From positions 1 to 64,000 of the forward strand of contig JAOAIX010000006.1 of the NCBI GenBank assembly GCA_026414485.1: DNA of 64,000 bases, written 5' to 3'. Position 1 is the stretch's first letter, and each line of letters begins with the position of its first letter. Origin of the DNA: Candidatus Bathyarchaeota archaeon. Lineage in GTDB: Archaea > Thermoproteota > Bathyarchaeia > Bathyarchaeales > Bathycorpusculaceae. This document shows positions 30,968 to 47,227 of the stretch, piece after piece. Made by a program: the position numbers and the translations under genes. Below the pieces are notes generated by a model, which saw only the letters and a list, made by a program, of their open reading frames with translations, did no database searches and was not told the DNA's origin.

Positions 30968-31996
30968 ATGTCCACAACAGCTAATTGGGTTCCCACAGAC
31001 GGTGATACTTTCGTAACCAAGGAAGGTTTTATATTCAACACACTAGGATATGAACATCCGCTAGGTGTTGTGTTTGCATTTCTCAAATACATTCCAGCAG
31101 AATACCAGAAGCTCTTTAATGTGGAGATGCTGGAGCGCACTTGGAGTTTTGGCGGCAAGCAGCTTTTCCGAGCTGAGAAACTCTACACCGCAGAAAACTA
31201 CAAGTCTTTTGTGGAGACTTTTCGCAAAAACTTCCCAGAATATCTTTACTATTGCTATTTACGGCACAAAGAGCTCATCAGTGTTCCTGTTAATCGCATA
31301 GAAAAAGTTTTCGTACCAAAAGAGCGACTCCAATATCTAATGGGTTTGGAGAAGCGGGACCGCATCCAAACTTTAGCGTTGGAACTTGTTGAATTAATTT
31401 CTAAAGAGTCAAACGTCAATATGCAGGATCTAGGCATTCACGGCTCCATAGCTTTAGGTATGCACAGTGAAGAAAGCGACATAGACTTTGTTGTTTTAGG
31501 CTCCAAAAACTTCCGCAAAGTTGAAGCAACCATAGACCGTCTTGTAGAGGCGGGAACGTTGCGTTATCTATTCAGCAATCGTCTAGATAGGGCTCGAAAA
31601 TTCAAGGGTAAATACAAAGACAAAATCTGGATGTACACAGCTACCCGAAAGCCTGAGGAGTTTCCTCCTCCCTACGGCACTTTAAGATTTTCAGTTATGC
31701 ATCCAGTAAAGTTTGAATGCATCATAAGTGATGACTCTGAAGCCATCTTTCGCCCAGCTATATACAAATTCACCAACTACAAACCTCTAGATAAAAAATC
31801 CGAACTATCTGCTGATCGTCTTCCTGTTTCAATAATATCTAACATCGGTTGCTATCGAAACGTAGCTCGAAACGGTGACCGCGTCAAAGTTTCAGGGGTT
31901 CTTGAACGTGTAGAATCAAACAAAACAGGCGAAGTTTTCTACCAAGTCGTGGTAGGTACAGCAACTACGGAGGAAGAATACATTTGTCCTCTGTGA
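30968..31996 (+). CDS. pol-beta-type nucleotidyltransferase, paralogue 1
   Basis: A 342-residue uncharacterised archaeal protein. The N-terminal domain (1-100) starts [20 protein letters not shown]. The central nucleotidyltransferase core has [11 protein letters not shown] and [11 protein letters not shown] (G159-S160, D171, D173), the GS...DxD signature. A likely third carboxylate lies in [13 protein letters not shown]. The C-terminal segment [13 protein letters not shown]...EVFYQVVVG looks like an OB-type barrel. It overlaps the start of paralogue 2 by 13 bp. No substrate is known. It might transfer a nucleotide or a CitG-derived prosthetic group; see the CitG-like gene at 34174. Confidence 0.85.
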
Positions 31997-33072
31997 AGTT
32001 GAGAGATCGGGACAGCATAGTCACCAAAGAAGGCTTAATTTTCCGTGTGTTTGGTTACAGTCATCCATCAAACGCCTACATATGCGATGCAGAATATGCT
32101 TCGTCTGAAATCTTCAAATCTTCTGACCCGCGTGCTCCCAGAGATGGCGCGGGCAAAAGCAACCTTTTCTACAAATTTTATGACGACGAAGGCTGGAAAT
32201 TCATCCACAAAAACTATCCACGATATGCAATTACGCATGAGATGCTTGGAGTCACTGTATTAGGCGTAAATCGGGCTTACATATCAGAAGTGCGTGAGCC
32301 TTCAGTACGACTAAAGGAGCTTGTTGCTGTGGAGCCCGCAGACAAGCTACATGCTGCCACACTACGAGTATTAAATGTCTCACTTAAGCGGTCGGGTTTA
32401 TCCGTTGACAACTTTGGGGTGTTTGGTTCTATACTTCATGGTTTTCATCATCCTGATTACTCGGATATTGACCTGATTATTTACGGTAGAAGGCAAATCG
32501 AGAAAATGCGGCAAGCCCTTGAGGTTCTTTACGCAGAACATGATTCAGGTTTCAGAAACGAATTTGAAACTGATGCTGCAATAGCCGGAAAAAAATGGCG
32601 TTTCAAGAATTTTACTCCAAAAGAGTTTTTGTGGCACCAGAAGCGCAAATTTATCTACGCCTTATACGACGACAAAGCACAAAGCGGGCGTGTCATCAAA
32701 GCTGAGTTTGAGCCAGTCAAAAAATGGAAAGAAATCAAAAACGAATATAACCCACAAACCAAAATTGTGCCCAAAGATTGGGTACGAATCAAAGCACGAA
32801 TAACAGAGGATGTTGACGCACCTTTTATTCCCTCTGTTTACAGTATAGAACCACTTGAAGTACTAAGTGGCTCAAGAACTGTGTTGGAAGCCACACGTGT
32901 GATATCCTACCTGGAAGAGTTCAGGCAACAAGTGCAAAAAGACGAAACCGTGATAGTTGAAGGTAATCTAGAAGAAGTTGTCTCGACAAAAGGTAGTTTC
33001 CATCAAATAGCTCTGACTTATTGCCCACGTTACTACGAGCAAACTCTCAAAGTTGCAAATCTAACTTTTTGA
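31984..33072 (+). CDS. pol-beta-type nucleotidyltransferase, paralogue 2
   Basis: A 362-residue paralogue of the preceding gene with the same layout. N-terminal [20 protein letters not shown] is followed by the catalytic core [20 protein letters not shown] (G148-S149, D161, D163) and a C-terminal OB-like segment with [11 protein letters not shown]. The start is TTG 31984 or GTG 31993, inside the end of paralogue 1, with GGAGGAAG upstream, so translation is coupled. Its 3' end overlaps the convergent paralogue 3 by 12 bp. Function unknown. Confidence 0.85.
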
Positions 33073-34080
33073 TAACACCATATAATCCGATGGTTTATTG
33101 CCAATAATTACTCTGTAGTATTCGTGCATATTTCGCTTATCTGTGACATGTTCAATTTTACCTTGCGCCGTTATTTTCTCGCCAATCTTTGCTTGTTCAC
33201 AGAATCTACCGCGAAAACTAGTAATCTCAGATATGCCCTCCTTTTTTGGTCCCTCCAAAACTTTGACATCACCTATCTGGTATCTACACGGGGTGAAAAG
33301 CGCCTCAGAATCATCTTTGATGGTTGCTGCTAATTTGACGTGGCCTGCATCCTCGTAGTAAACATCACCATATTGTTCATCAGCTTCATTCCAGTCCTTC
33401 ACAAAACGCACAAAATAGTCCACGTCACTGTACATGCCTTGGAATGCTTTACGCATTTCAACCTTCACGAAGTCCTCGAAGTCCATATAAGTATCTTTTG
33501 AACGAAAATCAAACAACTTCTGTAGTTCAACCGTAGTGTATGGCCTGAACTGTGAAGCACTATTTTTCAGTAATTCTTGTAGTGCAAAATAAGCCTTGCG
33601 GCAATTTGTAGTACCGTACACAAGTGGGTCAATGTCGCTTTTAAAAGTGAACAACCCCGCCATTATTGAACCTGAAATGCCTATGCTGCTCCACGGAATA
33701 TCGGCAGCTTCTTTGAGCGCTTCAGCTAACATCACAGCTTTACGCTCCAAATCTTCCAGTTTGCTAGCTGTGCGCAATTTAGCAAGCCTCTCAATTGGGT
33801 CAAAACGCTCCACTATGATGTCAACTGGAACCTCGCAAAGAGTCGAGCCAAACACGGGATCATAAACAATAAACTGTGGCGCGTGCTTCTGCAGATACTG
33901 AAAACGCTCTGAAAGGTTGTACACTTTACCATAAAAGTTGTCCCCCCTACCGCGGTTTCCCTCAGGCGAGGGTATGTAGCGAGGAAAAGCGATAACTTTG
34001 TTTGGAGGATGCACCAACCCTTTAACATCAAAGATTATGTTATCTTTAGTCTTGATGAGGTCGCCTTCTCGTACACGCAC
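33061..34080 (-). CDS. pol-beta-type nucleotidyltransferase, paralogue 3
   Basis: The open frame extends to ATG 34158 (365 residues). I prefer GTG 34080 (339 residues) because the paralogues begin just before the GDxxxTKxxxIF segment, and because a TTTATTA box near 34128-34135 would place transcription start around 34105. The catalytic core is IGISGSIMAGLFTFKSDIDP (DxD at 149 and 151 from GTG 34080). A Pro follows the second Asp, unlike the hydrophobic residue in the other two. The C-terminal GEKITAQGKIEHV segment matches the OB-like ends of the paralogues. It is divergent from the CitG-like gene and overlaps paralogue 2 convergently. Confidence 0.82.
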   Translation of the reverse strand: MRVREGDLIKTKDNIIFDVKGLVHPPNKVIAFPRYIPSPEGNRGRGDNFYGKVYNLSERFQYLQKHAPQFIVYDPVFGSTLCEVPVDIIVERFDPIERLAKLRTASKLEDLERKAVMLAEALKEAADIPWSSIGISGSIMAGLFTFKSDIDPLVYGTTNCRKAYFALQELLKNSASQFRPYTTVELQKLFDFRSKDTYMDFEDFVKVEMRKAFQGMYSDVDYFVRFVKDWNEADEQYGDVYYEDAGHVKLAATIKDDSEALFTPCRYQIGDVKVLEGPKKEGISEITSFRGRFCEQAKIGEKITAQGKIEHVTDKRNMHEYYRVIIGNKPSDYMVLSKS

Positions 34081-34173
34081 AATAAACACCAATGAGCTTC
34101 TAACCGCCTTAGCACCCAACACAACGCTAATAAACTTTTTCAACGGTACATCCAACATCGGTGTCAGAAATTA

Positions 34174-35124
34174 ATGCCTGCTGTTGACAAAGCCAAACAC
34201 GTCTCTCAATGTCTACAACTTGCCATCCTCCTCGAAGTAAGCACAAACAAACCAGGTAACGTAAACTTCAATGTAGGCTTTGCAGATACTCGCTCCGAAC
34301 ATTTTCTTGCTTCAGCCGTGGCAGCAGCTCCCGCTTTTGAGGATGCAACAAAACGTGGCATACAAATCTCAAGTAAAAAACTCCCACTCAGCAAGGCAGG
34401 AATAGGTGAAATAATTAAAAACTGCGTAACAGACATAAAGGCATGGCAAAGTGGCGGCAACACACTTCTTGGAACGGTTATGTTGCTTGTTCCCATAGCA
34501 GTAGCCGCAGGCATGACCAACACAAAAAACGACTTCCTTTTTAATATAGACAAGCTGCGGCAAAACTTAAAAATCGCTGTTGAAGCCACCACTGCCCAAG
34601 ATGCCGTTAACCTCTACGAGGCCGTAAACATAGCGAACCCAAGTGGACTTAACACTTTAACAGAACTTGACGTCAATAATCCACAATCTAAACAACAACT
34701 CATCAAAGAAGACATTTCACTTTTTAAAGTTTTTCAGATAGGTGCTTCATACGATGACATCTGCTACGAGTGGGTCAACAACTATCCAGTAACGTTCACC
34801 CAAGCCTACCCTTATTTACTGCAGACGCTCAAAACAAAAGGTGACTTAAATAGAGCTATCGTTCATACATTCCTCAAAGTCCTCGCCGAACATCCCGACA
34901 CCTTTATAGCACGAAAAGTAGGCAAACAAAAAGCCCAGGAAATCTCACAAGACGCCCAAATAGCTCTCGAACAAGGGGGATTGGAAACGCTTGCAGGTAG
35001 AAAAGCAATAAACGATTTAGACCAAAAACTTCGCAGTTCAGGAAATCGCCTAAATCCTGGTACCACCGCTGATATAATTGCGGCCACATTGTCGCTGTGT
35101 ACCCTAAGCGGTTTTAGACCGTAA
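34174..35124 (+). CDS. CitG/MdcB-like triphosphoribosyl-dephospho-CoA synthase family protein
   Basis: A 316-residue helical protein of the ATP:dephospho-CoA triphosphoribosyl transferase family. N-terminal LAILLEVSTNKPGNVNFNVG matches the E-(V/A)-xxxPKPGxV motif. Mid-protein there are GGNTLLGTVMLLVPIA and YEAVNIANPSGLN; the C-terminus has GGLETLAGRKAINDLDQKLR and NPGTTADIIAA. Bacterial CitG makes the precursor of the citrate-lyase/malonate-decarboxylase prosthetic group. Archaeal members have no established role, and no lyase subunits are seen here. It is divergent from paralogue 3 of the nucleotidyltransferases, and its 3' end overlaps mobA by 21 bp. Confidence 0.85.
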   Translation: MPAVDKAKHVSQCLQLAILLEVSTNKPGNVNFNVGFADTRSEHFLASAVAAAPAFEDATKRGIQISSKKLPLSKAGIGEIIKNCVTDIKAWQSGGNTLLGTVMLLVPIAVAAGMTNTKNDFLFNIDKLRQNLKIAVEATTAQDAVNLYEAVNIANPSGLNTLTELDVNNPQSKQQLIKEDISLFKVFQIGASYDDICYEWVNNYPVTFTQAYPYLLQTLKTKGDLNRAIVHTFLKVLAEHPDTFIARKVGKQKAQEISQDAQIALEQGGLETLAGRKAINDLDQKLRSSGNRLNPGTTADIIAATLSLCTLSGFRP

Positions 35125-38887: not shown

Positions 38888-38915
38888 CACTGAAATTCTA
38901 TTGGTAAGGTTGGAC

Positions 38916-39320
38916 ATGATGATGCAGCAAAAGTTGCGCGTAACTTTGATTACTGGCCGAACAATAGAACAAGGCGTAGGTAAAGAGTATGGTAAATCCT
39001 CACCTGAATATTATGAAGCCTGCTCAATGGTTTACATGGACGCAGAGGATATGAAAAAGCTGGGCATAAAAACAGGTGCTCATGTTTTGGTAAGAACCCC
39101 TCAAGGTTCGGTTGTTTTAAGAGCTGTTAAATATCCTCGTAGCGCCACGCCGGGATTAATTTATATCCCTTATGGGCCTTGGGCAAATGTGGTGGTTGAC
39201 GACTCAACTACTAGTATTGGTATGCCCACCTTCAAAGGAACGCCTGCAGAAGTTGAAGCTGCACCTGACCAACCTGTTTTGAGTATAGAGGAACTTTTGA
39301 AAAAAGAGTTTGGGAGGTAA
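38916..39320 (+). CDS. fwdD: formylmethanofuran dehydrogenase subunit D
   Basis: About 134 residues, starting at one of three consecutive ATGs from 38916. It is a molybdopterin-dinucleotide-binding barrel with VTLITGRTIEQGVGKEYGK at the N-terminus, LGIKTGAHVLVRTPQGSVVL in the middle and GLIYIPYGPWANVVVDDSTTS near the end. It covers the pterin cofactor held by FwdB. It is the first gene of a five-gene set, fwdD-B-A-C-mch. Confidence 0.93.
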   Translation: MMMQQKLRVTLITGRTIEQGVGKEYGKSSPEYYEACSMVYMDAEDMKKLGIKTGAHVLVRTPQGSVVLRAVKYPRSATPGLIYIPYGPWANVVVDDSTTSIGMPTFKGTPAEVEAAPDQPVLSIEELLKKEFGR

Positions 39321-39326
39321 AATAAA

Positions 39327-40796
39327 TTGTCTGTTATTAACGCCGTAACCTGTCCAATATGTGGCTGCTTATGCGACGACATAGAAGTTACAGTTGTTAA
39401 CAACGAAGTTGTTAAAGTAAAGAATGGTTGCGCGGTCTGTGAAGCCAAATACATGGGCTATAAAAGTGAACACAGAATCCGTCAACCTTTGGTTCGCAAA
39501 GAAGGTAAGCTTGTACCTGTATCTATGGATGAAGCCATTCATAAAGCAGCTGAGATACTGGCAAACGCCAATTATCCCGTCTTGTACGGTTGGAGTTCAA
39601 CCAACTGTGAAGCGCAACGAGTTGGTGTTGAGCTAGCTGAGGAAGTTGGTGGTGTACTTGACAACACCGCAGTAGTCTGTCACGGGCCATCCCTTATGGG
39701 TACTCAAGAAGTTGGTATCCCAACATCCACGTTAGGGCAGATTCGACACCGAGCTGATTTGATTATTTATTGGGGCTGTGATCCATGGAGTGCACATCCA
39801 CGTCACCTCGAAAGATACACCACTTTCACAGAAGGTCGCTTTGAAGACAGCGAATGGAAATCTTACATAAATAAAGTCAAAGCAGTTGCAGGCAAAAAGA
39901 AGTTGCTTAGCGCACAAAGAGTAGAACCGCATAAGAAACCACATGAAACTGTTGCTGAATCCCTGATTTTCAATAAACCTCCTGAAACTCTGCAAAAAGA
40001 AGGGCGTAAACTCATAGTTGTCGATGTAAGAAAGAGCATGACTGCTGAAATGGCTGATTACTTCATTCAGGTTCAACCGGGCAAAGATTACGAACTGATG
40101 CAAGCAATCCGTGCTTTAATTAAAGATGAAGAATTAGACGTTGAACAAGTTGCAGGCGTTCCGGTTGACTACCTCCGAGAAGTTGTTGATGCCCTTATAA
40201 GCTGTAAATTTGGCGTCATATTCTTCGGCATGGGTCTCACACAATCTGCTGGAAAATTCAGAAACATAGAAGTTGCCATATCGCTTATACGGGATCTAAA
40301 CTCACGAACAAAGTTTCTCATCATGCCTATGCGAGGGCACTTCAATGTCAGCGGAGCTAACATTGTCTCTGCTTGGCAAACCGGTTATGCTTTTGGTGTT
40401 GACTTTTCATTAGGTTATCCTCGTTATAATCCTGGTGAGACAACTTCTATGGACGTTCTTCTACGTGGTGAATCTGACGCTACTCTAGTTATTGCTGCTG
40501 ACCCAGGTGCTACTTTCCCAAAAAAAGCAATCCAGCACATGGTAAAACATCCTTTGATTGTAATTGATCCACACCTAAATGCGACGGCTATGTTGGGCGA
40601 CGTTGTCATCCCTTCAGCTTTTGTTGGGATTGAAGTCAGCGGAACCGCCTATCGCATGGACAATGTTCCTTTGCCATTAAAGAAAGTTGTTGAACCTCCC
40701 GAAGGTATTCTTACAGACGAGGAAATTCTTAAAAAAATTCTTGAAGAAGTCCGAATTATTAAATCAAAACGTGATGAAAAAACGGAGGCTCCCTAA
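39327..40796 (+). CDS. fwdB: formylmethanofuran dehydrogenase subunit B (catalytic, Mo/W)
   Basis: A 489-residue bis-pterin subunit reducing CO2 to formate before transfer to methanofuran. The N-terminal cysteines (CPICGCLC, CAVC; C9, C12, C16, C38 as candidates) bind a [4Fe-4S] cluster. The metal-ligating residue is C118 in NTAVVCHGPSLMG, so this is the cysteine, not selenocysteine, form. The start is TTG 39327 with GGGAGGT upstream. Its stop overlaps the fwdA ATG (TAATG). The electron-carrying subunits FwdF/G are not in the window. Confidence 0.96.
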   Translation: MSVINAVTCPICGCLCDDIEVTVVNNEVVKVKNGCAVCEAKYMGYKSEHRIRQPLVRKEGKLVPVSMDEAIHKAAEILANANYPVLYGWSSTNCEAQRVGVELAEEVGGVLDNTAVVCHGPSLMGTQEVGIPTSTLGQIRHRADLIIYWGCDPWSAHPRHLERYTTFTEGRFEDSEWKSYINKVKAVAGKKKLLSAQRVEPHKKPHETVAESLIFNKPPETLQKEGRKLIVVDVRKSMTAEMADYFIQVQPGKDYELMQAIRALIKDEELDVEQVAGVPVDYLREVVDALISCKFGVIFFGMGLTQSAGKFRNIEVAISLIRDLNSRTKFLIMPMRGHFNVSGANIVSAWQTGYAFGVDFSLGYPRYNPGETTSMDVLLRGESDATLVIAADPGATFPKKAIQHMVKHPLIVIDPHLNATAMLGDVVIPSAFVGIEVSGTAYRMDNVPLPLKKVVEPPEGILTDEEILKKILEEVRIIKSKRDEKTEAP

Positions 40797-42490
40797 TGAC
40801 TGAAATTCTGATAAAAAATGGTTTCGTCTTTGATCCTTTAAACAAGATTAATGGCGAAAAAATGGACATTGCTATAAAGAATGGAAAAATTGTTGAAAGC
40901 GTTAACGAGCAAAAAGCCAAAAAAATTGACGCTGCTGGTTTGACGGTGATGCCTGGTGGCGTTGATATTCATACACACATAGCAGGTGGAGAAGTAAATA
41001 CTGGTCGCATGATTAGACCTGAAGATCACGTTAAAGACGTTGTAAGCAAGACTTCCATAACGCGTTCGGGTACTGGTTATTCTATTCCTTCCACGTTTGT
41101 TACTGGTTACCGCTACGCAAAAATGGGCTACACTACTGTTATGAATCCGTCTATGGCTCCTTTAGGTGCAAAACATACACACGAAGAATTAAACGATATA
41201 CCTCTTTTAGATAAAGCCACTTTTCCTTTGCTTGGAGATTGGTGGTTCGTTCTCGAACATCTTCAAAGGGGCGATTTGGAAGGTTGTGCAAGGCATGTTG
41301 CATGGATGCTGGAAACCACAAAGGGTTACGCCATAAAAATTGTAAATCCTGGCGGTTTAGAGTCTTGGGGTTTCGGGCGTAACGTTCACAGTATAGACGA
41401 TACGGTTCCCAATTTTGACATTACCCCCAGAGATATTATGTGTGGTCTCGCTAAAGTGAACAAAATGCTTAATCTACCCCACTCTATCCATTTACACACT
41501 AACAATCTTGGAATTCCAGGCAATTATGTTACTACGCTGGAAACCATGAAGGCCCTCGAAAATGTACCCACAGATGGCAGACCTACTTGTCACATCACAC
41601 ACTTGCAATTCAGCAGCTTCGCGGGCGACAACTGGGGCAACATGAAATCTGCCGCAGAAGAAATTTCCAAGTACATAAACAACCACAACCACATAACCTT
41701 CGATATGGGGCAAATAGTCTTTACCGATACTACAACAATGACTGCTGATGGTCCATTTGAGTTTACGCTTTACCAGTTGAGTGGGCATAAATGGGTTAAC
41801 ACTGATGTTGAAACTGAAACAAGTGGTGGTATCATTCCAATGCATTACAAGCGCACAAGCGCAGTTAACGCCTTACAATGGTCAATTGGGTTAGAGCTTG
41901 CATTGTTAGTCGAGGACCCGTGGAAAGTTTTTATGACGACTGACCATCCGAATGCAGGGCCATTTTTTGCTTATCCAAAAATTATGGCATGGCTAATTAG
42001 CAAAAAAGCAAGGATGGCTACATTGGCGAAGTGCCATAAGAAAGCCCAAAAGAGAAGTCTACTTCCCTCAGTTAAACGTGAATTGAGCCTATACGAACTT
42101 GCTATAGTAACTCGTGCAGGTCAAGCAAAAGCTCTAGGCCTCAAAAACAAAGGTCACTTAGGCGTGGGTGCAGACGCGGATATAGCCATCTACGATATAA
42201 ACCCTGAAAAAATTGACGTAGCTAAAAAGTACAAAACTGCCCGCAAAGCCTTCGGTAACGCAGCCTATACAATCAAAGATGGTAAAATCGTGGTCAAAGA
42301 TGGAGAAGTTGTACAGCATACTGATGGCAAAACTATGTGGCTTGATGTGAAAACTGCGGAGCAATTAAAGGTTGATGAAGAAATGAAACTCAAGTTCAAA
42401 AAGTACTGGACAGTTGAATATGAAAACTACCCTGTGTATGACCACTACGTTAAAGTTCCTGAAATAATAAGTGTGAAGGCGAGCGTTTAA
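40796..42490 (+). CDS. fwdA: formylmethanofuran dehydrogenase subunit A (amidohydrolase)
   Basis: A 564-residue binuclear-metal amidohydrolase that condenses formate with methanofuran. It has the HxH metal site VDIHTHIAGGEVNTGR (H59, H61), a candidate carboxylated lysine in YAIKIVNPGG (K181), HLHTNNLG and HITHLQFSS for further ligands, and the Asp of FMTTDHPNAGPF. ATG 40796 overlaps the fwdB stop; CGGAGG lies upstream. The product works with FwdB through an internal formate tunnel. Confidence 0.96.
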   Translation: MTEILIKNGFVFDPLNKINGEKMDIAIKNGKIVESVNEQKAKKIDAAGLTVMPGGVDIHTHIAGGEVNTGRMIRPEDHVKDVVSKTSITRSGTGYSIPSTFVTGYRYAKMGYTTVMNPSMAPLGAKHTHEELNDIPLLDKATFPLLGDWWFVLEHLQRGDLEGCARHVAWMLETTKGYAIKIVNPGGLESWGFGRNVHSIDDTVPNFDITPRDIMCGLAKVNKMLNLPHSIHLHTNNLGIPGNYVTTLETMKALENVPTDGRPTCHITHLQFSSFAGDNWGNMKSAAEEISKYINNHNHITFDMGQIVFTDTTTMTADGPFEFTLYQLSGHKWVNTDVETETSGGIIPMHYKRTSAVNALQWSIGLELALLVEDPWKVFMTTDHPNAGPFFAYPKIMAWLISKKARMATLAKCHKKAQKRSLLPSVKRELSLYELAIVTRAGQAKALGLKNKGHLGVGADADIAIYDINPEKIDVAKKYKTARKAFGNAAYTIKDGKIVVKDGEVVQHTDGKTMWLDVKTAEQLKVDEEMKLKFKKYWTVEYENYPVYDHYVKVPEIISVKASV

Positions 42491-42491
42491 A

Positions 42492-43307
42492 ATGATAGTC
42501 TTAACTCCTCTCAAAAAATTTCAGTTTCCTATTCATGCTGAATGCATAAATCCTGATGTTTTTCAAGGTAAATCTGTGGAGGAAATTGCTTCTCTACAGG
42601 TGTGGGAAGGTAATAGACAAAAGAAACTTGGGGACATTTTCAAAATTGAAGCAACTACTCATGAAACACCTAACATAACAATCAATGGTGATGTGAGTGA
42701 GGTTCGCCGTATAGGTCAAGGGATGAAAAATGGCGAAATCGTAATTAACGGTGATGCAGGTATGCACACAGGCGAAAAAATGGCGGGTGGCAAAATTACT
42801 ATAAACGGTAATGCAGGTGGTTGGACAGGTAGCTCGATGAAAAAAGGTCTAATTGAAATTCATGGCAACGCAAGCGACTATTTGGCTTCGCCTTATCGTG
42901 GAAGTACAGAAGGTATGCGCGGCGGCAAAATTGTCGTCGATGGAAACGTGGGTAGTGATTCAGGCTCCCACCTGCGTGGTGGGCTAATCAAAATTAAAGG
43001 TAGCGCCGGTCCTTTTCTTGGTTTTCATATGAGTGATGGAACTATCCATGTAGAAAAGAACGCAGCAAGCCGGCTTGGAGCAAACATGACTGGCGGCAAA
43101 ATCGTAGTTTCAGGAAGTGTAGATGAACTCATGCCTACTTTCACTATAGACAGCATAAAGCCAAAAGTAAAAATTGACGACACTGAAACAGCGCAGGGTC
43201 CATTTTACGTTTTTTTGGGGGATTTAGCAGAGAAAGGCAACGGCAAACTCTTCATATCAAAAGCCAATAATGCCCAACTTGGGCCAATATACGAAAAGTA
43301 TCTATAA
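42492..43307 (+). CDS. fwdC: formylmethanofuran dehydrogenase subunit C
   Basis: A 271-residue beta-helical subunit related to the GltS C-terminal (GXGXG) domain. It is built from repeated glycine motifs such as NGDVSEVRRIGQGMKNGEIV, NGDAGMHTGEKMAGGKI and DGNVGSDSGSHLRGGLIKIK. It provides structural scaffolding around FwdA and FwdB. It starts 2 bp after fwdA and ends 14 bp before mch, so it is in the same operon. Confidence 0.95.
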   Translation: MIVLTPLKKFQFPIHAECINPDVFQGKSVEEIASLQVWEGNRQKKLGDIFKIEATTHETPNITINGDVSEVRRIGQGMKNGEIVINGDAGMHTGEKMAGGKITINGNAGGWTGSSMKKGLIEIHGNASDYLASPYRGSTEGMRGGKIVVDGNVGSDSGSHLRGGLIKIKGSAGPFLGFHMSDGTIHVEKNAASRLGANMTGGKIVVSGSVDELMPTFTIDSIKPKVKIDDTETAQGPFYVFLGDLAEKGNGKLFISKANNAQLGPIYEKYL

Positions 43308-43321
43308 GGTGAACAAAGAGC

Positions 43322-44287
43322 TTGCCTAAAGTCTTAAGTGTAAACCGATTGGCACGGGCACTTTCTGAGAAATTTTTGAGCAACCCTGATTTCTACAATG
43401 TTTATTGTACAAAAACTAGTACAGGTGCAACCATAATAGATGCAGGTGTCAAATCAAGAGGAGGCTTTCAAGCTGGGAAACTACTCACCGAACTTTGCTT
43501 GGGGGGCATAGGCAAAGTCCAATTAGACTTCAAAACTTATGGAGAGCTAACTTTTCCATCTGTAACTGTCTCTACAGACCACCCTGCGATTGCAACTTTA
43601 GGTTCACAGTTTGCTGGATGGCGTATAAAAGAGCCTGATGGCTCCATAGCCATAGGTTCAGGTCCTGCTCGGGCATTAGCGCTCAAGCCTAAAGATGTTT
43701 ACGAGGAAATCGACTACAGAGACTCATCAGACTGTGCTGTTTTAACTTTGGAGAGCAATTGCTTACCATCTGACGCTCTTATTGAAAAGGTTACAACCAC
43801 TTGCAACATTAAAGCTGAAAACTTAATTGTAGTTGTAGCTCCAACCGCAAGTATTGCTGGTCTAACACAGGTAACAGGTAGAGTTGTAGAAGTGGGTATT
43901 CATAAACTGCGCACATTAGGTTTAAGTCCAAACCTCATCAAGTACGCCTGCGGTTATGCTCCCATTCCTCCTGCAGGTAAAGACTTTGAAGTTGCTATGG
44001 CGCGAACTAATGATGCTATACTCTATGGTGGAACAGTCTATTGCACTGTTGAATACGATGACGAAACAGCGCTACAAAAAATTGTAAATCAGGCACCATC
44101 TAAAATGTCCAAAGACTATGGTAAGCCTTTTCTGCAGATTTTCCGCGAAGCCGATCGTGACTTCTATAAAATAGACCACAACCTCTTTGCGCCTGCTATC
44201 CTCATTGTGAACAACGCAAGAACAGGTAATGTGTTTAAAGCAGGAGAAAATAATCCTACAGTTCTTGCGGAATCTTTGGGGCTTTAA
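43322..44287 (+). CDS. mch: methenyltetrahydromethanopterin cyclohydrolase
   Basis: A 321-residue enzyme that interconverts N5-formyl- and methenyl-H4MPT. The landmarks are SVNRLARALSEKFLSNPD, GLTQVTGRVVEVGIHKLRTL and YACGYAPIPPAGKDFEVAMA, plus the C-terminal DRDFYKIDHNLFAPA. The start is TTG 43322 with AGGTGA nine bases upstream. It closes the fwd operon. The formyltransferase (ftr), mtd and mer genes that connect it to Fwd and MtrH are not in the window. Confidence 0.96.
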   Translation: MPKVLSVNRLARALSEKFLSNPDFYNVYCTKTSTGATIIDAGVKSRGGFQAGKLLTELCLGGIGKVQLDFKTYGELTFPSVTVSTDHPAIATLGSQFAGWRIKEPDGSIAIGSGPARALALKPKDVYEEIDYRDSSDCAVLTLESNCLPSDALIEKVTTTCNIKAENLIVVVAPTASIAGLTQVTGRVVEVGIHKLRTLGLSPNLIKYACGYAPIPPAGKDFEVAMARTNDAILYGGTVYCTVEYDDETALQKIVNQAPSKMSKDYGKPFLQIFREADRDFYKIDHNLFAPAILIVNNARTGNVFKAGENNPTVLAESLGL

Positions 44288-46333: not shown

Positions 46334-47227
46334 GTGAGGATCGGAATTGCAACTCGCAACATGGCAGCTTGGAGTAGCACCCAAGTACGAGAAGCGCTAT
46401 CCAGACGAGGAATACCATATGTCTGTTTCACTTTTCCTAAACTGGTTTCCCAGATCGGACACAAACCATACTTCCGAGTTAAGGATGTGAACTTGCAGAA
46501 TGTGAATTTGCTGGAAGACCTCGACGCCTTAATTATCCGTCCCATTGGGAGGGGCAGCCTAGAAGAATTAGTTTTCCGTATGGATATGCTCTACAAACTC
46601 GAACGCGAAGGATTTTATGTGTTGAACCCTGCGGAAGCAATAGAGCACTGTGTCGACAAATACGACATACTCGCCATCCTAGAGGATAATGGTGTACCCG
46701 TGCCACGTACTTTCGCCACTGAAAGTGTAAACGAGGCAGTAGCGGCTTTTGAAGAATTAGGTGGTGATGTAGTTGTTAAACCCATATTTGGCTCCAGGGG
46801 AATCGGTGCAACTAGGGTTGTGGATAAGGAAATTGCCAATACGGTCTTTAAAGCTATTGCTTTTCAACATGGCGTCATTTATCTACAAGAGTTTGTTCCT
46901 CATGGGCACAGTGACATTCGTGCTTTTGTAATTGATAACCATGTTATTGCGGCGATGCGTCGTGTTGCTGAGGGTTGGAAAACCAACTATAGTCAAGGTG
47001 CGCGACCTGCACCAACAACGTTGAGTAAAGAGTTTGAGGATTTAGCTGTGAAAGCGGCGAAGGCGGTGGGCTGTAAAGTTGCAGGTGTTGATATCCTTGA
47101 GGGTCCTAATGGTCCAAAAATTTGTGATGTGAACAGCCAACCTGGCTGGAAAGGTTTACAAATGGTGACGAAGGTTAACATTGCTGAGGAAATTGTAAAG
47201 TTTTTGCTTTTGGAGCTGAAAAAATAG
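46334..47227 (+). CDS. mptN: RimK-type ATP-grasp ligase, likely tetrahydromethanopterin:glutamate ligase
   Basis: A 297-residue ATP-grasp enzyme. The N-terminal IRPIGRGSLEELVFRMDMLY and the VDKYDILAILEDNGVPVPRT region resemble MptN (H4MPT:alpha-L-glutamate ligase, forming tetrahydrosarcinapterin). ATP-grasp elements are VVVKPIFGSRGIGATRV, YLQEFVPHGHSDIRAFVI and GVDILEGP...KICDVNSQPG. The alternatives are CofF (F420 glutamate ligase) and LysX, which share the fold. The H4MPT enzymes nearby favour MptN by context. The start is GTG 46334 with GGGATGA upstream. Confidence 0.75.
   Translation: MRIGIATRNMAAWSSTQVREALSRRGIPYVCFTFPKLVSQIGHKPYFRVKDVNLQNVNLLEDLDALIIRPIGRGSLEELVFRMDMLYKLEREGFYVLNPAEAIEHCVDKYDILAILEDNGVPVPRTFATESVNEAVAAFEELGGDVVVKPIFGSRGIGATRVVDKEIANTVFKAIAFQHGVIYLQEFVPHGHSDIRAFVIDNHVIAAMRRVAEGWKTNYSQGARPAPTTLSKEFEDLAVKAAKAVGCKVAGVDILEGPNGPKICDVNSQPGWKGLQMVTKVNIAEEIVKFLLLELKK

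Follow-up and report, generated by a model that had tools for sequence, protein, structure and literature searches.

What a gene of the CitG family does in an archaeon, and what it shares with the nucleotidyltransferase genes beside it, is the question raised by a locus of Candidatus Bathyarchaeota (contig JAOAIX010000006.1), of which a stretch of 64,000 nucleotides, here called the window, was analysed. The block consists of the CitG gene (34174..35124, forward strand) and three genes for nucleotidyltransferases (NTs) of the GS...DxD class, namely NT1 (30968..31996, forward) and NT2 (31984..33072, forward), which stand in tandem with an overlap of 13 bases, and NT3 (33061..34158, reverse), which is divergent from CitG. 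The four open reading frames (ORFs) and the divergent arrangement agree with a preliminary description of the sequence, which had proposed that archaea may have a pathway for making and transferring a ribosyl-nucleotide-like group, possibly a dephospho-CoA-like one. The general proposal stands, as CitG is accompanied by GS...DxD enzymes in many genomes, while the dephospho-CoA-like group on an acyl carrier does not, and the gene context points to tetrahydromethanopterin (H4MPT). This context had been missed, although Fwd-Mch genes and an MptN-like ligase are encoded in the same window. We put the probability at about 0.6 that CitG and NT3, which belongs to NT group A and corresponds to the single NT of Euryarchaeota, assemble the H4MPT tail, with CitG as the predicted alpha-ribosyl(-phosphate) transferase.

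Methanogens, methane-oxidising archaea and many methylotrophs use H4MPT as their one-carbon (C1) carrier. We know of no genes assigned to the last steps of its tail, the alpha-ribosylation and the phosphodiester to hydroxyglutarate, for which CitG and NT would be two concrete candidates. The same reading would account for a widespread misannotation, the label 'triphosphoribosyl-dephospho-CoA synthase' in archaea and methylotrophs.

Sequence families and structure

The window CitG matches PF01874 over its whole length (positions 2-283 of 284, E 1.8e-70, 238 bits against a cut-off of 27), and alignment with E. coli CitG and the CitGs of bacterial H4MPT islands showed that the motifs KPGN, N-T-x-x-G and NPGTTAD are kept. 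Its scores lie below the cut-offs of the NCBIfam equivalog models for CitG and MdcB (49.6 versus 272 bits and 56.8 versus 282 bits), a third equivalog score is also low (66.2 versus 280 bits), and 27 relatives likewise stay under the CitG/MdcB cut-offs. In the tree, the window protein clusters with the bacterial H4MPT-island CitGs, apart from E. coli CitG. Judged by sequence, it is a member of PF01874 that is excluded as a CitG or MdcB equivalog. One solved relative was found by sequence, the 'putative triphosphoribosyl-dephospho-CoA synthase' 3h9p, which would be the protein of Archaeoglobus fulgidus because the loci closest to it are those of Archaeoglobi, with identity up to 79%.

NT1 and NT2, identified by ORF, PF01909 match, alignment and tree, score above the curated cut-off of PF01909, and NT3 scores below it (E 0.018). 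All three can be aligned over their full length with one another and with 60 relatives, where NT1 and NT2 share 26% and 24% identity with NT3, respectively, as distant paralogues. The G-S...S-D-x-D signature (G163 S164 ... D175 D177) is invariant in the 63 sequences and, together with the palm in the structural model, supports their membership of the Pol-beta superfamily. No Pfam or NCBIfam model of the family's own was found, the matches being to generic nucleotidyltransferase models. A genome search returned one CitG and three NTs, all inside the block. The ATG of NT3 at 34158 is probably about 70-80 bases upstream of the true start, which is placed at about 34080-34089 because homologues begin there and the model is disordered over its first ~26 residues.

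The AlphaFold2 model of NT3, built with the 63 sequences, is confident (mean predicted local distance difference test score 93.4) and shows three parts, an N-terminal domain rich in beta structure, the nucleotidyltransferase palm and, at the C-terminus, a barrel, which bears out the earlier remark on an unusual N-terminal domain and an OB-like C-terminus. In Foldseek searches, the barrel resembled SSB-type OB folds with target-normalised template modelling (TM) scores of 0.4-0.6, the palm was nearest to poly(A) polymerases, and no match to the whole architecture was found in the PDB; the NT sequence profile also had zero matches in the PDB. No known tRNA or poly(A) nucleotidyltransferase was matched over the whole fold, the best PDB match, to a poly(A) polymerase, having E 0.019 and a query TM of 0.19. 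An antitoxin of the MntA type (type VII toxin-antitoxin system) was rejected, NT1 scoring 15.2 bits on the NCBIfam model against a cut-off of 60.

Pairing of CitG with nucleotidyltransferases

The tree of 79 NTs resolves four orthologue groups, A (NT3), B, C (NT1) and D (NT2), among which C and D usually form an overlapping tandem pair and B, not found in the window's own family f1, often adjoins Ftr. NTs occur in 53 of 61 close relatives, mostly in 3-5 copies per genome. Of the 163 genomes of the order, 129 have CitG and 125 have the orthologue of NT3 or a member of its sister group. Where both genes could be placed, CitG lies within 1.5 kb of group A in 96 of 111 genomes (88 divergent, 8 on the same strand), with 49 at 150 bases or less; in six more the two genes are on separate contigs of mostly fragmented assemblies.

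Among 250 Thermoproteota genomes, each 90% complete or better, 118 carry CitG together with NT and 117 carry neither; eight have NT only and seven CitG only. Outside the window's class, 80 of 200 genomes have the pair (66 with MptG in addition) and 110 have neither, and co-absence is repeated across several families in high-quality genomes, e.g., G044, G056, G147, G148 and G081. The conservation of CitG with NT is far beyond chance, and the neighbourhood and co-occurrence that the preliminary description had proposed to look for in related genomes were found on both counts.

CitG is present in 93 of the 99 Thermoproteota with MptG and in 32 genomes without it. In the order, MptG and Mch score above their cut-offs in 53 and 140 of the 163 genomes, respectively, so an H4MPT-like coenzyme seems to be in use in many genomes that retain CitG/NT but have no MptG. 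A strict dependence of CitG/NT on MptG was accordingly discarded, the relation being nested in both the 163- and the 250-genome sets. Family f9 genomes G143-G149, G056 and G044 have Mch and lack recognisable MptG, CitG and NT-A, with G149 retaining just the C/D pair. Genome G159 has five Mch-family matches, four of them divergent copies.

Tetrahydromethanopterin genes around the pair

For comparison of neighbourhoods, 40 regions were fetched and clustered. In family f1, to which the window belongs, the NT-NT-NT-CitG block adjoins FwdD-B-A-C-Mch; the NT-CitG block is next to Fwd-Mch in the window and five other loci. The corresponding genes of the window, all on the forward strand and identified by Pfam, encode a FwdD-like protein with a molybdopterin-dinucleotide-binding domain (38901..39320, the name being inferred from gene order), a FwdB-like molybdopterin oxidoreductase (39327..40796), a FwdA-like amidohydrolase (40796..42490), a FwdC-like GXGXG protein (42492..43307) and the methenyl-H4MPT cyclohydrolase Mch (43322..44287, PF02289, E 2.9e-116). 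They are followed by an MptN-like H4MPT:alpha-L-glutamate ligase (46334..47227, forward), a label given for the best NCBIfam match, which stays under the equivalog cut-off (NF040720, E 5.9e-80, 268 bits versus 350). These genes lie 4-12 kb from the CitG/NT block.

Links to coenzyme biosynthesis are seen in the Bathyarchaeia-like families f9/g61 and f5, where the order is a dihydropteroate-synthase-like (DHPS-like) protein (TIGR00284), MptG, PTPS, DUF1464, a DmrX-like protein, an MptE-like protein, DUF447, CitG and NT-A, followed by NT-B where the contig reaches. The domains were checked with Pfam and NCBIfam in locus L066; the MptE-like protein is a pyrophosphokinase, and the DmrX-like protein is a flavoprotein-ferredoxin whose best NCBIfam match, 'dihydromethanopterin reductase', is under its cut-off. 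NT-B adjoins Ftr in families f4, f6 and f7 (11 loci; Ftr verified in L072). In the window genome, MptG is found on contig 33 with DUF447, a DHPS-like protein and an energy-coupling factor (ECF) S-component.

A scan of named genomes with the CitG alignment returned 80 archaeal loci, 78 euryarchaeal and two from Bathyarchaeota. In both of the latter (L170 and L176) NT adjoins CitG, L176 having the order DHPS-like, MptG, DUF447, NT and CitG. Of the 80 loci, 73 have DUF447, which almost always comes immediately after CitG and in methanogens is itself often followed by DmrX and a DHPS-like gene. Of 30 named euryarchaeal genomes searched with the NT profile, 29 have a single full-length NT; in eight Methanosarcinaceae loci it lies two genes from MptA/FolE2 (Pfam-verified in L196), the GTP cyclohydrolase that is the first enzyme of the pterin pathway. 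CitG and NT are therefore a pair even where they are not neighbours. With MptG, MptE, DmrX, DHPS-like, DUF447 and MptA genes all found in these clusters, the connection of CitG/NT to H4MPT is very likely. The C1-coenzyme metabolism of CitG and NT3 is probably also that of NT1 and NT2, of groups C and D, respectively.

Several other genes recur in these regions. Next to CitG or NT-A, an ECF S-component-like membrane protein is encoded in 22 of the 26 genomes sampled that lack MptG and in one of the seven that have it (Fisher p 0.001, for hand-sampled genomes), as in L069-L104; in the window genome it is beside MptG (L105:12279-13058). This protein may import a methanopterin precursor. A Cdv/ESCRT-like block, with a CdvC-type ATPase and its neighbours, lies a few kb from CitG in many archaea (L072-L104), and a conserved TIM-barrel-like protein of ~380 aa (cluster e2) is encoded directly upstream of CitG-DUF447 in 23 loci among L123-L185, its hosts being Methanosarcinaceae and peat euryarchaea. 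Haloarchaea retain the CitG-DUF447 pair, e.g., on a Natrinema plasmid (L217:5004-6448), and the control genome of Haloferax volcanii has CitG, MptG and Mch matches above cut-off. Although haloarchaea are held to use folate only (PMC8305020), a methanopterin-like tail in this group may deserve a second look.

Bacterial dephospho-H4MPT islands

Plasmid searches with the archaeal CitG mainly returned H4MPT islands of Proteobacteria, with the order MptG, MtdB, ATP-grasp, mch, Orf5-like, CitG and fae; DUF447 is also nearby. Since this order fits the published mch-orf5-orf7-fae1 (PMC3615186), Orf7 is very probably the CitG of the bacterial islands. Orf5 has been assigned to methylofuran glutamylation (PMC8141765) and is thereby no competitor for the role of CitG/NT. 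The plasmids with H4MPT islands gave zero NT matches. The coenzyme of Methylorubrum extorquens is dephospho-H4MPT, without the phosphate and alpha-hydroxyglutaric acid (PMC8141765). CitG kept with the ribose, and NT missing with the phosphate and hydroxyglutarate, is the pattern that a division of labour between CitG and NT predicts.

The NT matches on plasmids were from Streptomyces only. A distant full-length homologue is encoded on a Streptomyces goshikiensis plasmid (L219:5001-6017) and on about 20 Streptomyces plasmids in all, with a phosphotransferase, a histidine phosphatase family protein and two S-adenosylmethionine (SAM) methyltransferases as neighbours.

Proposed assembly of the tail

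When the prosthetic group of citrate lyase or malonate decarboxylase is made, CitG takes the 5-triphosphoribosyl group from ATP, releasing adenine, and attaches it to a ribose hydroxyl as an alpha-glycoside; CitX/MdcG then hands the phosphoribosyl part on to a hydroxyl, and pyrophosphate (PPi) is released. H4MPT carries an alpha-ribofuranosyl 5-phosphate on deoxyribitol and a phosphodiester to 2-hydroxyglutarate. As the bonds of H4MPT are of the same kinds as those made by CitG and CitX, the glycoside is ascribed to CitG and the phosphodiester to NT; hydroxyglutarate is a named component of H4MPT (PMC5695019).

MptG and the DHPS-like protein would make the pterin-arylamine intermediate that serves as the acceptor of CitG. 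The free ribitol hydroxyl of this intermediate would then receive a 5-(tri)phosphoribosyl group through CitG, with ATP as the probable donor, to give an alpha-ribofuranosyl glycoside. NT3 could take the 5'-triphosphate of the glycoside as a nucleotide-like donor and form, with release of PPi, a phosphodiester between the ribose-5-phosphate and the hydroxyl of (S)-2-hydroxyglutarate. Afterwards, the MptN-like ligase could add glutamate to the hydroxyglutarate end of the tail, the known substrate of MptN (PMC8141765). Family membership, motifs, pairing, context and phyletic pattern are observed, and the donor (ATP or phosphoribosyl pyrophosphate, PRPP), the acceptor, the order of the steps and any role of groups B, C and D are inferred. 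For the exact reactions of CitG and NT, the odds run from even to somewhat better than even.

Several points weigh against this scheme. All co-occurrence counts ignore shared ancestry, and a recognisable MptG is absent from 79 of the 129 CitG-bearing genomes in the order, which would then depend on an imported precursor or a different enzyme. The phosphoribosyl donor in older cell-free work was reportedly PRPP, not ATP. The presence of groups C and D without CitG, as in G149, indicates that some NTs are independent of CitG, and no H4MPT genes were seen near the Streptomyces plasmid NT in the region viewed. An OB fold and a palm nearest to poly(A) polymerases would suit RNA, and genes for the tRNA modification N6-threonylcarbamoyladenosine (t6A) adjoin NT at some loci, Kae1/TsaD in L186, L187, L207 and L210 and Sua5 in L211-L213, so that an RNA role for some NTs is possible.

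Alternative explanations

The preliminary description had suggested that CitG makes triphosphoribosyl-dephospho-CoA, which the NTs attach to an acyl-carrier-like protein. The fold and motifs of CitG are kept and the GS...DxD signature is common with MdcG, a member of that class, yet the idea is scarcely credible. A search of the genome (92% complete) for PF06857, the acyl carrier of citrate lyase and malonate decarboxylase (CitD/MdcC-type), gave nothing at E<=1, with a positive E. coli control. CitG stays under the CitG/MdcB cut-offs, and the neighbours belong to H4MPT biosynthesis and C1 transfer in two domains of life. The NTs have no Pfam MdcG or CitX match up to E 1, and the alignment of NT3 with E. 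coli CitX (21.9 bits over 57 residues) is not meaningful, in keeping with the earlier statement that they are not plain CitX or MdcG. It is unlikely that CitG acts in H4MPT biosynthesis while the NTs activate a different partner of the pathway or of a branch of it, for example by transferring a nucleotide from ATP or CTP to hydroxyglutarate or ribose-5-phosphate, or by acting on methanofuran, F420 or molybdopterin for the Fwd enzyme encoded close by. Such a role would suit the several NT paralogues per genome, the C/D pair without CitG and the NT groups that adjoin Fwd, Ftr, MobA/MobB-like genes and MptA beyond CitG alone. CitG, however, is the closest and most conserved partner of NT, whose presence tracks it; the bacterial islands, which serve a furan coenzyme too, have no NT, and the nucleotidyltransferases of F420 and molybdopterin are already known (CofC/CofD and MobA).

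That the NTs are RNA or tRNA nucleotidyltransferases, e.g., linked to t6A, and lie near CitG by chance or through shared regulation is quite improbable. The palm and the OB fold, nearest to poly(A) polymerases and SSB/RPA, respectively, fit such a role, though with poor scores, and the Kae1/TsaD and Sua5 neighbours also speak for it. A tRNA function, though, should not vanish together with CitG, as it would have to in the Thermoproteota that lack both, and linkage to CitG, MptG, MptA, Ftr, Fwd and Mch is far commoner. The clustering could also reflect shared ancestry and a compact housekeeping region of functionally unrelated genes, in which Cdv/ESCRT, winged helix-turn-helix and MobB genes do recur and for which the statistics make no phylogenetic correction. 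This is very improbable given that the association recurs in divergent and same-strand form, within the MptG-MptE-DmrX cluster and in bacteria, and that the genes are absent together in several families of high-quality genomes.

Novelty and wider reading

An involvement of Orf7 in H4MPT metabolism is already implied by the published island. No text joining CitG or triphosphoribosyl with methanopterin was found in the open-licence literature, and earlier proposals may exist, especially in the M. extorquens papers of 2003-2005; COG1665, COG2413, COG1767 and arCOG04238 were likewise not found mentioned there. What appears new, having no precedent in that literature, is the joint archaeal system of CitG and a dedicated nucleotidyltransferase with its division of labour.

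A more speculative extension, which we consider rather doubtful as a whole, is that the hitherto undescribed three-domain NT family, with its three to five paralogues per genome in Bathyarchaeia, and CitG form a general coenzyme-tail module, in which different NTs would join the pterin triphosphoribosyl donor made by CitG to different acceptors, giving Bathyarchaeia methanopterin variants with undescribed tails, in some lineages from an imported precursor.

Comparison with known systems

The GS...DxD palm is common to the NTs and the Pol-beta-like minimal nucleotidyltransferases of PF01909, including MNT/MntA and the palms of poly(A) polymerases, from which the NTs differ by their own N-terminal beta domain and C-terminal OB fold. 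Orf7 of the bacterial islands (Methylorubrum extorquens and relatives), annotated as triphosphoribosyl-dephospho-CoA synthase, would correspond to the window CitG as a gene and in the type of its context, with mch, Orf5-like, CitG and fae in a row. The bacterial islands are distinguished from the archaeal system by the missing NT partner and by dephospho-H4MPT as the coenzyme.

CitG and MdcB have in common with the window CitG the family PF01874, along its entire length, and the KPGN/KPGL, N-T-x-x-G and PGxxAD motifs, and the predicted alpha-ribosyl transfer with phosphates on C5 is alike. They differ in that the window CitG has no partner lyase, decarboxylase or carrier, and a branch of about 5 changes per column separates E. 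coli CitG from the H4MPT-linked clade. The proposed chemistry of the NTs resembles that of CitX/MdcG in the triphosphoribosyl donor, the attack of a hydroxyl, the release of PPi and the resulting phosphodiester, whereas the NTs are three-domain proteins and their proposed acceptor is a small hydroxy acid instead of a carrier protein.

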